A model generated the notes under the pieces. That model worked only from the letters and a program-made list of their open reading frames with translations, searched no databases and was not told where the DNA came from. A program made the translations under genes and the position numbers. DNA of 64,000 nt from Nitratireductor indicus C115 (GTDB taxonomy: Bacteria > Pseudomonadota > Alphaproteobacteria > Rhizobiales > Rhizobiaceae), in assembly GCF_000300515.1 (NCBI RefSeq), contig NZ_AMSI01000010.1:1-64000 (forward strand). Direction: 5' to 3'. Numbering within the stretch: position 1 is the first letter of the stretch; the number at the start of each line of letters is the position of its first letter. Below are positions 28,932 through 45,593 of this stretch, in pieces.

Positions 28932-28945
28932 TGTAACCGGTTACA
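28932..28945. promoter_or_regulatory. LacI-type operator
   Basis: TGTAACCGGTTACA is a perfect 14-bp palindrome with the central CG typical of LacI/GalR-family operators. It lies 128 bp from the regulator start and 70 bp upstream of the binding-protein start, so it can repress both directions. Confidence 0.88.
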
Positions 28946-29014
28946 GTTTCTCGTCGAGAACTGTCAAGCGCCGCTCCGGGAGGGACCGGCGCATGGAATT
29001 TGGGAGGATTCACA

Positions 29015-30316
29015 ATGCAGCTACCCTTGAATTTGTCGCGCGCGTTTGCCGCCGCCCTGCTTGCCACCACCGCGATTTCCGGCGCAGCCGCGCAGGATTT
29101 TGACTGGAAGGCGCATCAGGGCGAAACGATCACCTTTCTCGCCAACAACAATCCCTGGGCCACCAACGTCCTGAAATACAAGGACGAGTTCGAAGCTCTG
29201 ACAGGCATAACCCTGCGCGTGGACACATATCAGGAGCAGCAGATGCGCCAGCGCCTGCTGACCGTTCTCAATGCGCACAGCGATGAGATCGACATCTTCA
29301 TGACCTTGCCATCGCGCGAAGGCCGCCAGTTCGCCGCAGCCGGATGGTACAGGGACCTGAAGTCCTATACGCAAAACGCCGTCTCACCCGATTACGATTT
29401 CGACGGCTTCGGAAGCGCGCTGGTGGAAGCCGCCGTGTTCGACGATGTCCTCACCGGCGTGCCGCTTAATATCGAAGGACCGATCCTCTATTACCGCAAG
29501 GACATCTTCGAAAAATGCGGCCTTGGCGCACCTTCCAAGCTTGAGGACCTGCCCGAAATCTCCGCCAAGCTCAAGGAATGCGCGCCCGACGTCACCGCCT
29601 TCGCAAGCCGCGGCCTGAAGCCCGCCCTGCCCTATACGTTCAGCAACTTCCTGCACAATGTGGGCGGAAGCTACATGAAGGACGGCAAGTCGAATCTGTG
29701 CTCGGACGAAGGCAAGAAGGCAATCGGCCTCTATGCGAACCTTCTGAAGGATTACGGACCGCCCGGAGCCGTCAACTACTCCTTCTACCAGCTCACCTCG
29801 CTCTATCGTGAGGGTCGCGCAGCCATGTCGTTCCAGTCCTCCAACGAGTTTCCCGCTGTCATGGAAGGCGGTGCCCGGCTCGAGGACACAGCGCTCATGC
29901 CGCTTCCAGCCGGCGATGGCGGCTCGCATCCCACCACGATCGGCTGGGCGCTCGCCGTCTCGAACTTCAGTTCCAATCCGGATGCCGCTTGGTATTTCGT
30001 GCAATGGGCAAGCAGCCCCGAAATGCAGGCGAAGCTCGCACTTGAAGGCATTGCCCCGCCGCGCAACGCCGTTGCCGAAAATGCCGGATACAAGGCTTGG
30101 CTCAGCGAACAGCCGGTACGCCAGGAATGGCAGACGGCACTCGGTCATCTGGCCGACCAGGGCACCTCGGAAGTCGGTTACCCGATCATCCAGAACCCGG
30201 AATCGCGCGAACATATCGGCCAGGCCGTCGACGCGGTGCTTCTCGGCACCAGCACGGTGGAAGAAGCCTGTGCCGAGGCCGACAAGCAACTGAATGCGCT
30301 GATCGAGCGCGAATAG
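29015..30316 (+). CDS. Sugar/polyol ABC transporter substrate-binding protein
   Basis: This 433-aa family 1 (MalE-like) binding protein has a signal peptide ending near AISGAAAQ (about residue 26). The body has the expected layout ([86 protein letters not shown] C-terminal motif). GGGAGGAT precedes the ATG. It heads the LacI-controlled operon. The ligand is unknown; nearby dehydrogenases, kinase and aldolase point to a hexose or hexitol, possibly sulfonated. Confidence 0.9.
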
Positions 30317-30329
30317 CGCGCTCATATCC

Positions 30330-30351
30330 GGGGCGGCGCTCGCGCCGCCCC
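30330..30351 (+). terminator. Intercistronic GC hairpin after the binding-protein gene
   Basis: Nine-base arms (GGGGCGGCG at 30330-30338 and CGCCGCCCC at 30343-30351) with a 4-base loop follow the binding-protein stop by 14 bp. Only four A residues follow, so full termination is unlikely. Such hairpins commonly protect the binding-protein message and reduce expression of downstream permeases. Confidence 0.6.
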
Positions 30352-30399
30352 AAAATCGACACGTCAGAACGAAAACCGCCCGCGCGGCCTGAAGGGAAC

Positions 30400-31149
30400 A
30401 TGCAAGTGTCACCCACATCCTCCCCTTTTGCCCTTGCTCCGGAATTCACCGCCGTCGTCATCGGCGGCGCCGGCGGCATCGGCGCCTCGGTCTCGCGCCT
30501 GCTTCTCGATCTCGGCGCGACGGTGGTTGCAACCGGCATAAGCGAAGCGGAGTTGGCGACATGCGGTTTGCCGCACCATGACAAGCTTTCGCTGCGCGTC
30601 CTGAACGTTACCGACGACGCAGCCATGCGCGCTTTCGCGCAGTCCTTCGAACGCGTCGATGCGCTGATCAATTGCGCCGGCATTCTTCGGCGCGACGCGG
30701 AATATGAACTGGACGTTTTTCGCCAGGTGATCGACGTAAACCTCACCGGAACCTTCAGCGCCTGCACTGCCTTCAAGAGCGCGCTGACGAATGCCGGTGG
30801 CGCCATCGTCAACATTGCCTCCATGAACGCCTTCTCCGCCCTGCCGCGCATCCCCGCCTACTGCGCCAGCAAGGCCGGCGTGGTGATGCTGACAAAGGCG
30901 CTCTCGCACGCCTGGGCACCCGATGGCATCCGCGTCAACGCTGTTGCGCCCGGCTTCATCGAAACCGCGATCAACGCCGATGGGCGCAAGGACACGGCCC
31001 ATTACGAGCGCATCGCGGCGCGAACGGCCATGAAGCGCTGGGGCCAGCCCGACGAGGTTGCAGGCACAGTTGCCTACCTCCTGATGCCCGCATCCGCTTA
31101 TGTGACCGGCAGCGTGTATGCTGTCGATGGCGGATTTCTTGCAAGCTGA
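30400..31149 (+). CDS. Short-chain dehydrogenase/reductase (SDR)
   Basis: This 249-aa classical SDR has the cofactor loop [16 protein letters not shown], the NCAG motif ([10 protein letters not shown]), catalytic Ser in [13 protein letters not shown], Tyr and Lys in PAYCASKAG, and the C-terminal [12 protein letters not shown]. The acidic/neutral end of the second strand gives no firm choice between NAD and NADP. It should oxidise or reduce a sugar or polyol hydroxyl. ATG 30400 has AAGGGAA upstream; the long frame before it is not coding. Position inside an ABC-transporter operon with a second dehydrogenase suggests two redox steps on the imported compound. Confidence 0.88.
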
Positions 31150-44410: not shown

Positions 44411-44428
44411 TTCTACAGTCTCCCCGGC

Positions 44429-44716
44429 CTACCAGCGCTTCGTCTTGAGATTGTGGACATGCACGTGGCCGCCCTTCTTCACGTCAGCGACGAACTTGCC
44501 GATGTCCTCGCCGTATTTGATGGCGGTGTCGCCGGCCTTCACGTCGCTCAGCGCGACCTTGTGGCCGATGGGTACGTCGTCATGAACCGGCATCTCGAAG
44601 CTCGAATTGTCGTGCGTCACGACGCAAAGCATGTTGGTGCCTGCCTTCAGGTTCTCGACAACGACGACACCGACATTGTCCTTTTTTTCATGAACAAGCA
44701 GGTGGGGAATGGTCAC
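44429..44716 (-). CDS. suyA: (2R)-sulfolactate sulfo-lyase small subunit
   Basis: This 95-aa SAF-domain protein (NVGVVVVENLKAGTNMLCVVTHDNSS, DDVPIGHKVALSDVKAGDTAIKYGEDIG) corresponds to the N-terminal module of altronate dehydratases and to SuyA. It pairs with SuyB as a separate polypeptide. GTG at 44716 is chosen because GAGGAG sits 8 bases upstream; the longer frame starts in the promoter region. It is the first gene of the sulfolactate operon. Confidence 0.92.
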   Translation of the reverse strand: MTIPHLLVHEKKDNVGVVVVENLKAGTNMLCVVTHDNSSFEMPVHDDVPIGHKVALSDVKAGDTAIKYGEDIGKFVADVKKGGHVHVHNLKTKRW

Positions 44717-44770
44717 GAATGCTCTCCTCTCGAACGGTGGCCAAAGAGACCGGGCTTCCTTCACCCAAGT

Positions 44771-44780
44771 CTTATATAAG
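44771..44780. promoter_or_regulatory. AT-rich palindrome upstream of suyA, likely GntR operator
   Basis: CTTATATAAG is a perfect 10-bp palindrome followed by ATATAAGATA, so a TTATAT/ATATAA pattern repeats. It lies between divergent suyA and the GntR gene, where the regulator should bind. HutC-type GntR proteins favour such A/T-rich dyads. Confidence 0.65.
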
Positions 44781-44885
44781 ATATAAGATAGAAGAGAGTG
44801 GAAATGTCAACAGGCCTGCGCTAAGGATTCTGCAGCGCTGGTGCTAAAAGGGTTGGGAGAAGCCGCGTTGGAAGAGAGCAGACCC

Positions 44886-45593
44886 ATGGAATACAAGCCC
44901 CTCTATATGCACATCCGCGACCAGCTGGTTCGCCATCTGGTTGATGGGAGCTGGGCGCCGGGCATGGTGATTCCAAGCGAAATGGAGCTCGCGCGCCAGC
45001 TTCAGGTCAGTCAGGGCACTGTTCGCAAGGCTCTCGACACGATGACGGCGGACAACCTTTTGGTGCGCAAGCAGGGCAAGGGAACCTTCGTCGCGGAACC
45101 CGAAGATTCGCGCATTCTTTTCCAGTTCTTTCGCCTTGTGCCCGACGATGGTCCTTCGGCTTTTCCACAGTCCTCGGTGATCGAGTGCGAGGAAAGCGGG
45201 GCGAGCGAAAGCGAGGCGACCGCACTCGAGATCGAGCCGGGCGCCCCGTTGTGGCGCATCCAGCGCCTGCGCCATCTGGCAGAGCGCTGCATCCTGGTTG
45301 AGACGATCTGCCTGCCCTCGGACCGGTTTCCGGATTTTCCCGATCTCGGCCAGATCCCCAACAACATCTACCAGCTCTTTTCGATGCGCTGGGGCATCAC
45401 CATCGCCCAGGCCGAGGAGCGCCTGAAGGCGGTGCTTGCAGAACCCGCCGATGCCCGCCTGCTGGCTTGCGAACCGGGAACGCCTCTCCTTCGCATCCAC
45501 CGCATCGCCCGCGACCTGGAAGGGCGCGCGGTGGAACTGCGCATATCGCGCTGTCTGACCGACGACATCCACTATGCGGTCAACCTGCGTTAA
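44886..45593 (+). CDS. GntR-family (HutC subgroup) regulator of sulfolactate operon
   Basis: This 235-aa regulator has an N-terminal winged helix (YMHIRDQLVRHLVDGSWAPGMVIPSEMELARQLQVSQGTVRKALDTM) and a UTRA ligand-binding domain (LWRIQRLRHLAERCILVETICLPSDRFP, RIHRIARDLEGRAVELRISRCLTDDIHYAVNL). ATG 44886 has GGAAGAGAG upstream; GTG/TTG codons further up are alternatives. It is divergent from suyA, so a role as the sulfolactate-responsive regulator is likely (SuyR-like), but not proven. Confidence 0.85.
   Translation: MEYKPLYMHIRDQLVRHLVDGSWAPGMVIPSEMELARQLQVSQGTVRKALDTMTADNLLVRKQGKGTFVAEPEDSRILFQFFRLVPDDGPSAFPQSSVIECEESGASESEATALEIEPGAPLWRIQRLRHLAERCILVETICLPSDRFPDFPDLGQIPNNIYQLFSMRWGITIAQAEERLKAVLAEPADARLLACEPGTPLLRIHRIARDLEGRAVELRISRCLTDDIHYAVNLR

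Follow-up and report, generated by a model that had tools for sequence, protein, structure and literature searches.

The sulfosugars with catabolic routes described in the literature searched are sulfoquinovose and, from 2025 on, sulfofucose; we saw no route for other sulfohexoses. Sulfolactate, in turn, is degraded through operons of the Chromohalobacter salexigens type (slcHFG-slcC-comC-suyAB; cited in PMC12421959). Here we describe a locus of Nitratireductor indicus C115 in which a sugar cassette with a divergent LacI gene meets a sulfolactate operon; the 64,000 nucleotides analyzed, referred to below as the window, are part of contig 10 (NZ_AMSI01000010.1, positions 1 to 64,000) of a 4.99 Mb genome. 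The same cassette is present in Paracoccus wurundjeri strain Merri, inside the 24-gene sulfofucose cluster 2, MDP0926256-0926279 (mBio 2025; PMC12421959). In that study, strain Merri failed to grow on sulfoquinovose, an Entner-Doudoroff (ED) route was demonstrated for sulfofucose with no sulfotagatose seen, the sulfolactaldehyde (SLA) dehydrogenase of the strain was not assigned, and the function of the cassette was not demonstrated (PMC12421959). We likewise found no paper giving the cassette a function in the open-licence literature, a search with subscription papers mostly outside its coverage.

Genes of the window were identified by Pfam and NCBIfam domain matches for its open reading frames (ORFs), and some by identity to relatives. 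All the genes named in an initial annotation of this DNA, which had described a LacI cassette convergent with a complete sulfolactate operon, are present (Table 1). After the divergent LacI gene, the plus strand (29015-36967) encodes a sugar-binding protein, a short-chain dehydrogenase/reductase (SDR), two permeases, a Zn-dehydrogenase, an ATPase, a PfkB-family kinase and a DeoC/LacD aldolase. The opposite strand carries genes for a YeiH exporter, ComC, SlcC, TctBAC, SuyB and SuyA, flanked by a GntR regulator gene on the plus strand, and the two operons converge at about 36970-37100. The sulfolactate operon is complete, comprising both SuyA and SuyB, two sulfolactate dehydrogenases, a transporter, an exporter and a regulator.

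On balance, we favor a sulfoglycolytic role for the cassette, as a module of the Embden-Meyerhof-Parnas (EMP) type acting on a 6-sulfohexose or 6-sulfohexitol that is neither sulfoquinovose nor sulfofucose. A more particular form of this reading is offered tentatively, as a possibility: LacI-regulated oxidoreductive EMP sulfoglycolysis, in which the SDR and the Zn-dehydrogenase take the place of an isomerase, the LacD-type enzyme is a sulfoketose-1-phosphate aldolase, and the substrate is again neither of the two known sulfosugars. The chief alternative is a cassette for an ordinary substrate, a sugar or polyol such as tagatose, galactitol or sorbose, with the proximity of the suy genes reflecting ordinary catabolic clustering, which we regard as unlikely.

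Relatives of the cassette were collected by an aldolase-profile scan of a species-genome collection, and the best 80 of 253 loci were divided into clade A (35 loci, L017-L051; 21 alphaproteobacterial and 14 others) and the remainder, termed clade B (45 loci). Clade-A hosts include Hoeflea, Paracoccus, Chelativorans, Jiella, Aurantimonas, Fulvimarina, Sagittula, Pararhizobium, Variovorax, Pseudacidovorax and others. The Zn-dehydrogenase, ATPase, PfkB and LacD genes stand together in all 35 clade-A loci, the LacI, binding-protein and permease genes in 34, and the SDR gene in 32 (the sequence of L035 is incomplete), and because these genes remain together across so many loci the arrangement is not due to chance.

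The kinase supports a link of the cassette to sulfoglycolysis. Among solved chains, the sulfofructose kinase 7ag6 ranks first (225 bits), followed by the 'Sugar kinase' 2rbc (170 bits), and the window kinase is 43% identical to Escherichia coli YihV. A tree was built from the kinases of the 35 clade-A loci, the window, 40 of the 45 clade-B loci (the other five giving no kinase match of sufficient length), YihV, 2rbc and a ribokinase; with these few references, clade A is monophyletic (support 1.0) and sister to YihV (support 0.87). At the positions of YihV Lys27, Asn109 and Arg138, which we take to be the sulfonate ligands, the alignment shows Lys, Asn and Arg in every clade-A locus and in the window. 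Of the 40 clade-B sequences, 39 have Lys, the other being gapped there, 28 have Asn and all have Arg, whereas 2rbc has K, P and R and the ribokinase T, I and E. The comparison with YihV that the initial annotation had called for therefore favors a PfkB kinase of the YihV lineage, as in sulfo-EMP, by both descent and residues. That the sole kinase of the cassette is of this lineage, with its three residues in all 35 loci, argues against an ordinary sugar.

An aldehyde dehydrogenase (ALDH) points the same way. Of the 21 alphaproteobacterial loci in clade A, 15 encode a GabD-like ALDH of about 485 amino acids between the ATPase and PfkB genes, as does 1 of the 14 others; its top solved relative is 8c54 (748 bits; the next, 687 bits). 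We identify 8c54 as RlGabD because its residue numbers W162-N163-F164 and R171 match those of RlGabD, whose activity as an SLA dehydrogenase is proven (PMC10599462). RlGabD and all 16 embedded ALDHs fall into a single clade (support 0.998), separate from three succinate-semialdehyde dehydrogenases, and share the motif PWNFPNGM; an enzyme of this lineage borne on the cassette also argues against an ordinary sugar. The window cassette itself has no embedded ALDH. The earlier statement that the window holds no SLA dehydrogenase is borne out for the GabD family, whose only matches on contig 10 are at 66749 and 191716, and the whole-genome search that had been suggested yields a candidate elsewhere. 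The best match to the embedded ALDH in this genome (55%; G000:C2:244624-246048) groups with ALDHs of clade-B loci (support 0.93-0.996), is 67% identical to the ALDH directly 3' of comC in L082, and is our candidate for the missing SLA-oxidation step.

Two other ideas about this step were rejected. Genes of the HpsN type for dihydroxypropanesulfonate degradation do not adjoin this ALDH, its neighbors being ketoacyl synthase and lipid A acyltransferase genes, and the Zn-dehydrogenase is set aside in view of its P. wurundjeri orthologue, which did not oxidize SLA in the published assay (PMC12421959). As a separate observation, the ALDH adjoins a Mem_trans-family membrane protein (G000:C2:244615-247150; L169:9616-12151), with lipid A genes nearby, and relatives of this protein occur in the clade-B/suy loci L056 and L074.

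In many genomes, desulfonation genes accompany the cassette. SuyB, at an identity of at least 67%, is found in 23 of 32 clade-A genomes (16 of 19 alphaproteobacterial, 7 of 13 others), a count that leaves out L035, L036 and L043 and overlaps the following sample. A sample of 395 family genomes gives SuyB in 11 of 15 with a clade-A aldolase, 37 of 43 with a clade-B aldolase and 34 of 337 with neither (Fisher 4e-8 for clade A versus neither, not corrected for kinship), an association that speaks against the ordinary-sugar alternative. Cassette and SuyB lie within 30 kb of each other in 4 of the 11 family genomes including the window (3 of 10 without it), where 0.14 would be expected; of the other seven, two have spacings of 149 and 198 kb on one contig and five are drafts with the genes on different contigs. 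Within the genus, a clade-A or clade-B aldolase is present in 3 of 11 genomes, all three with SuyB within about 14 kb. The flank of the suy operon is here a variable slot, occupied by the clade-A cassette in the window, a clade-B cluster in G004 and, by homology, in G010, and other genes in G005 and G008; that congeners hold a clade-B cluster on this same side is a further point against an ordinary sugar.

Clade B itself offers a useful comparison. Within the flank examined, its 45 loci include a YihV-like kinase in 41, a FucI-type isomerase in 34, a tripartite ATP-independent periplasmic (TRAP) transporter in 18, SuyA/B in 13, SlcC/ComC in 21 and a YihQ-like glycosidase in 9. The sulfosugar isomerase SqvD belongs to the FucI family (PMC9594981). 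Much of clade B thus resembles sulfoquinovose breakdown by way of a LacD-type aldolase. In the congeners (L011:10877-19761 with L012:57-1247, on G004:C12; L013, on G010:C61), a mutarotase, a YihV-like kinase, a LacD-type aldolase and a FucI-type isomerase are encoded beside suy operons. SuyB accompanies a clade-B aldolase in 37 family genomes: within 17 kb on the same contig in 22, on a different contig in 14 and about 2 Mb away in G793. A clade-B cluster beside a suy operon suggests full sulfoquinovose mineralization in one cell.

A number of observations weigh against a sulfoglycolytic cassette, and several of them favor an ordinary sugar. The aldolase scores above the cut-off of PRK12858, a tagatose-diphosphate aldolase model (366 bits versus 184), and YihT chains reach only about 50 bits and 24% identity, so that the enzyme called YihT-like in the initial annotation is instead of the LacD type, although it stays below the cut-off of the LacD tagatose-bisphosphate aldolase equivalog TIGR01232 (135.8 bits versus 432.2). 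Its closest solved relative is 8tnf, a 'DUF2090 domain-containing protein' (584 bits) whose 344 aligned residues all agree with the aldolase of L026, the strain Merri locus. Residues matching YihT Lys193 and Arg253, presumably the Schiff-base lysine and the phosphate-site arginine, are conserved across both clades as well as in YihT and LacD. Arg139 is common to clades A and B and YihT (Arg130), with Asp in both LacDs compared; this shared arginine counts for a sulfoglycolytic cassette. In the aldolase tree, the nearest sister of clade A is a group of six clade-B loci (L055, L061, L063, L073, L083 and L085; support 0.86) that lack both an isomerase and suy genes in the 10 kb around, which counts against inferring sulfo-specificity of clade A on aldolase grounds alone; the next group outside consists of isomerase/YihQ loci. 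These six loci, from Microvirga, Chelatococcus and one Variovorax, show a third type of neighborhood, with a YihV-like kinase, a LacD-type aldolase and an SDR.

The linkage to desulfonation is also uneven. Adjacency of the two operons as a general feature does not hold by the test that the initial annotation itself had set, since they are apart in most relatives: of the 21 alphaproteobacterial loci in clade A, only 5 (L020, L026, L031, L033 and L036, two of them named Paracoccus onubensis) have suy or slcC/comC genes at hand (within about 10 kb), in differing layouts, and none of the 14 others does; L030 has only an SlcC-like gene nearby (54%). The cassettes next to suy genes mostly have no embedded ALDH (L020, L026, L033, L036 and the window), with L031 having one. 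SuyB is absent from 9 of the 32 clade-A genomes and from 4 of the 15 in the family sample, the latter from three genera, and a cassette without SuyB in several genera is what an ordinary sugar would lead one to expect. The co-occurrence that was to be checked across relatives thus holds in the family sample and not in an order-level sample of 397 genomes, where SuyB is found in 2 of 9 clade-A genomes against a base rate of 81 of 397; the seven without it all belong to one genus (g42), and the cassette order was checked in three of the seven.

Regulation is a further point on this side. The palindrome TGTAACCGGTTACA at 28932-28945 is the sole exact site in the window and recurs between the LacI and binding-protein genes in clade A, with 19 of 35 loci matching it exactly and 10 differing at a single position. 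The sites of L039 and L051 differ from it at two positions, no site is present in L037, L038 or L048, and the sequence of L035 breaks off there. No LacI operator was found at suy operons in the window or the other stretches scanned. Direct co-regulation through a shared LacI site was accordingly rejected, and the two operons seem separately regulated, as the ordinary-sugar alternative would have it.

No match to a YihS-type isomerase, or to a FucI/SqvD-type isomerase with the G004 FucI-type protein as query, was found in the whole genome, in searches without a positive control. The earlier remark that the window holds no sulfoquinovose isomerase would thus extend to the genome, and the lack of a match to a sulfosugar aldose-ketose isomerase (YihS or SqvD) is a departure from known sulfo-EMP. 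Given the near-constant SDR and Zn-dehydrogenase and the missing isomerase, an oxidoreductive route to the sulfo-ketose is the simplest chemistry, and we infer that the two dehydrogenases probably replace the isomerase; their resemblance to galactitol, gluconate and xylitol dehydrogenases is equally a point for an ordinary sugar. Lastly, 14 of the 35 clade-A loci, either Paracoccus-like or Variovorax/Pseudacidovorax-like, encode an MR_MLE (enolase-superfamily) dehydratase 3' of the aldolase; its best match in the present genome is 47%, and the proposed scheme leaves it unexplained.

The P. wurundjeri data bear on a second alternative, an EMP-like route for sulfofucose via sulfotagatose in which the two dehydrogenases replace the isomerase, which we consider improbable. 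In L026 and L020 the cassette has slcC/comC on one side and sfc-family genes on the other, and its aldolase is of a tagatose-type lineage. The authors of the study considered this kinase/aldolase pair for such a route, and the suy proteins and the Zn-dehydrogenase rose on sulfofucose, whereas PfkB and LacD did not, sulfotagatose was neither formed nor detected, and the ED route was demonstrated (PMC12421959). The unchanged kinase and aldolase, and the failure of the Zn-dehydrogenase to oxidize SLA, belong equally with the points against our own reading. The window ORFs scanned in 24240-48501 include no member of the sfc families PF08450, PF13378/PF02746 or PF03328 (a genome-wide search with SfcD/E/F was not made).

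A third alternative, highly improbable, is that the charged group is a carboxylate, with a hexuronate-derived ketose as substrate and a semialdehyde acid as aldolase product. GabD-like ALDHs accept carboxylate semialdehydes, to go by their family names, and the MR_MLE proteins could be sugar-acid dehydratases. The place of the ALDH in the RlGabD clade, the sister relationship of the kinase to YihV, the SuyB linkage and the TauE/SafE-family exporter that several Variovorax-like loci encode close to the cassette all argue otherwise. Sulfoquinovose or its glycerol glycoside, with an isomerase encoded elsewhere, would suit the YihV-like kinase and the FucI-type isomerase of the G004 cluster and is the least probable substrate, given the lack of isomerase matches and the lack of growth on sulfoquinovose of P. 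wurundjeri, which has the full cassette and suy genes (PMC12421959).

Returning to a sulfoglycolytic cassette, the absence of growth on sulfoquinovose and of a kinase or aldolase rise on sulfofucose in P. wurundjeri means that the substrate is probably a third sulfohexose or sulfohexitol. The occurrence of the cassette in 35 of 80 loci, its tie to desulfonation in its own family and the P. wurundjeri non-response together point to a further sulfosugar. The initial annotation had envisaged a full route from a sulfosugar to pyruvate and sulfite; the kinase lineage, the ALDH in relatives, the SuyB co-occurrence and the linkage in the window and five relatives speak for it, and its YihT-like aldolase and general adjacency fall away.

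The sequences show which genes are present and conserved, how the kinase and the ALDH are related, a statistical SuyB linkage and the operator; the substrate and every catalytic step of the cassette we infer as follows. LacI would allow expression when the substrate or a product is present, and the ATP-binding cassette (ABC) transporter would import the sulfohexose or sulfohexitol. The SDR and the Zn-dehydrogenase would jointly yield a 6-sulfo-ketohexose by oxidation and reduction, with no isomerase; the YihV-like kinase would form the ketose 1-phosphate; and the LacD-type aldolase would cleave it to dihydroxyacetone phosphate (DHAP) and SLA. An ALDH, cassette-borne in many relatives and here probably that at G000:C2:244624-246048, would oxidize SLA to sulfolactate, which the neighboring operon would convert to pyruvate and sulfite through SlcC/ComC racemization, SuyAB and YeiH. 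If this is true, a natural sulfosugar would be newly recognized as bacterial food, and one cell may mineralize a sulfosugar not traced so far. Some LacD-type aldolases annotated as tagatose enzymes would then cut sulfosugar phosphates, with the annotation hiding the pathway.

Table 1. Features of the cassette and the sulfolactate operon (window coordinates unless a locus is named).
Feature	Position	Strand	Basis
LacI-family repressor of cassette	27737..28804	-	Pfam LacI + Peripla_BP_3; orthologues 63-81% in 34/35 clade-A loci
Putative LacI operator TGTAACCGGTTACA	28932..28945	.	perfect palindrome; conserved in LacI/binding-protein gap of clade-A loci
ABC sugar-binding protein	29015..30316	+	SBP_bac_1; Shine-Dalgarno-like sequence at start 29015; distant from SmoF (61 bits)
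SDR dehydrogenase	30400..31149	+	adh_short_C2; closest solved: 4avy (probable SDR), gluconate 5-dehydrogenases, lower down galactitol dehydrogenase
ABC permease 1	31165..32049	+	BPD_transp_1
ABC permease 2	32061..32888	+	BPD_transp_1
Zn-dependent dehydrogenase	32894..33922	+	ADH_N + ADH_zinc_N; closest: threonine 3-dehydrogenase, RspB, xylitol and galactitol-1-P dehydrogenases
ABC ATPase, MalK type	33922..35001	+	ABC_tran + TOBE_2
PfkB-family kinase grouping with sulfofructose kinase YihV	34998..35936	+	7ag6 225 bits; 43% to E. coli YihV; K43/N125/R154 = YihV K27/N109/R138
LacD-type class I aldolase (start perhaps 35933)	35918..36967	+	DeoC, PRK12858; 8tnf 584 bits; Lys216, Arg287, Arg139
YeiH-type exporter, probable sulfite exporter	37103..38122	-	PF03601; TIGR00698 below cut-off; adjoins ComC in L020 too
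ComC, (R)-sulfolactate dehydrogenase	38134..39132	-	Ldh_2; top NCBIfam match = L-sulfolactate dehydrogenase model, below its cut-off
SlcC, (S)-sulfolactate dehydrogenase	39129..40124	-	2-Hacid_dh (D-2-hydroxyacid dehydrogenase); 65-68% to L026/L108 gene placed by gene order as MDP0926259
TctB-like small permease subunit	40084..40557	-	between TctA and SlcC; 64-71% to counterpart in G004, G005, G008, G010
TctA permease	40554..42065	-	PF01970
TctC binding protein	42132..43106	-	PF03401
SuyB, sulfolactate sulfolyase large subunit	43229..44410	-	GD_AH_second + GD_AH_C; 79% to L108 gene placed by gene order as MDP0926258
SuyA, small subunit (start perhaps 44716)	44429..44764	-	weak NCBIfam match, galactarate dehydratase N-terminus; 69% to L108 SuyA
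GntR/UTRA regulator of sulfolactate operon	44841..45593	+	GntR + UTRA; relatives 73-78% beside suyA in four congeners
MR_MLE dehydratase examples	L020:11046-12197, L026:10971-12197, L044:11090-12271		Pfam (among the 14 clade-A loci) on L020 only

Several neighboring genes may be recorded here. In the window, a GMC oxidoreductase gene (45668-47239) adjoins the GntR gene and has a 96% counterpart beside the suy operon of congener G008. In L041 (11039-14541; by Pfam) and in L044 and L045 (by clustering), the cassette adjoins genes of three families that belong to the sulfo-ED pathway: a TauE/SafE exporter, an ILVD_EDD dehydratase and an HpcH/HpaI aldolase. In Pararhizobium mangrovi (L033:11114-12565 and 15582-18987), a sulfatase gene followed by genes for LacI, a second binding protein and the SDR lies between the rest of the cassette and the suy operon.

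Compared with known systems, the sulfolactate operon is an ordinary member of the Chromohalobacter salexigens type, with all components present and nothing essential differing. The cassette differs from the LacD tagatose pathway, in which tagatose 6-phosphate is formed by a phosphotransferase system or a kinase and then meets a second kinase, in having a single PfkB and ABC import. In P. wurundjeri cluster 2, whose record is L026, the order suyA-suyB-slcC-comC-LacI-binding protein-SDR-permeases-Zn-dehydrogenase-ATPase-PfkB-LacD fits locus numbers 257-269 (by gene order, Zn-dehydrogenase = MDP0926266, PfkB = 268, LacD = 269), and the families of downstream genes fit SfcH, SfcF, SfcE and SfcD at 275, 277, 278 and 279; the window cassette proteins are 63-81% identical to those of L026 (Zn-dehydrogenase 67%), with the difference that the operons converge in the window. 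The clade-B cluster of Nitratireductor pacificus (G004/L091), with mutarotase, PfkB, LacD-type aldolase, FucI-type isomerase, TRAP transporter and suy operon, resembles the window in its kinase (39%), in its aldolase (49%) and, within the genus, in flanking the same operon from the same side; unlike the window, it has an isomerase and TRAP import and, among the genes scanned, neither SDR nor Zn-dehydrogenase. With the sulfo-EMP pathway of E. coli (yihSTUV), finally, the cassette shares a YihV-lineage kinase, a class I aldolase of the same Pfam family and the expected products DHAP and SLA, and it differs in the isomerase, for which no match was found, and in its LacD-type aldolase, two dehydrogenases, ABC import and linked sulfolactate desulfonation.

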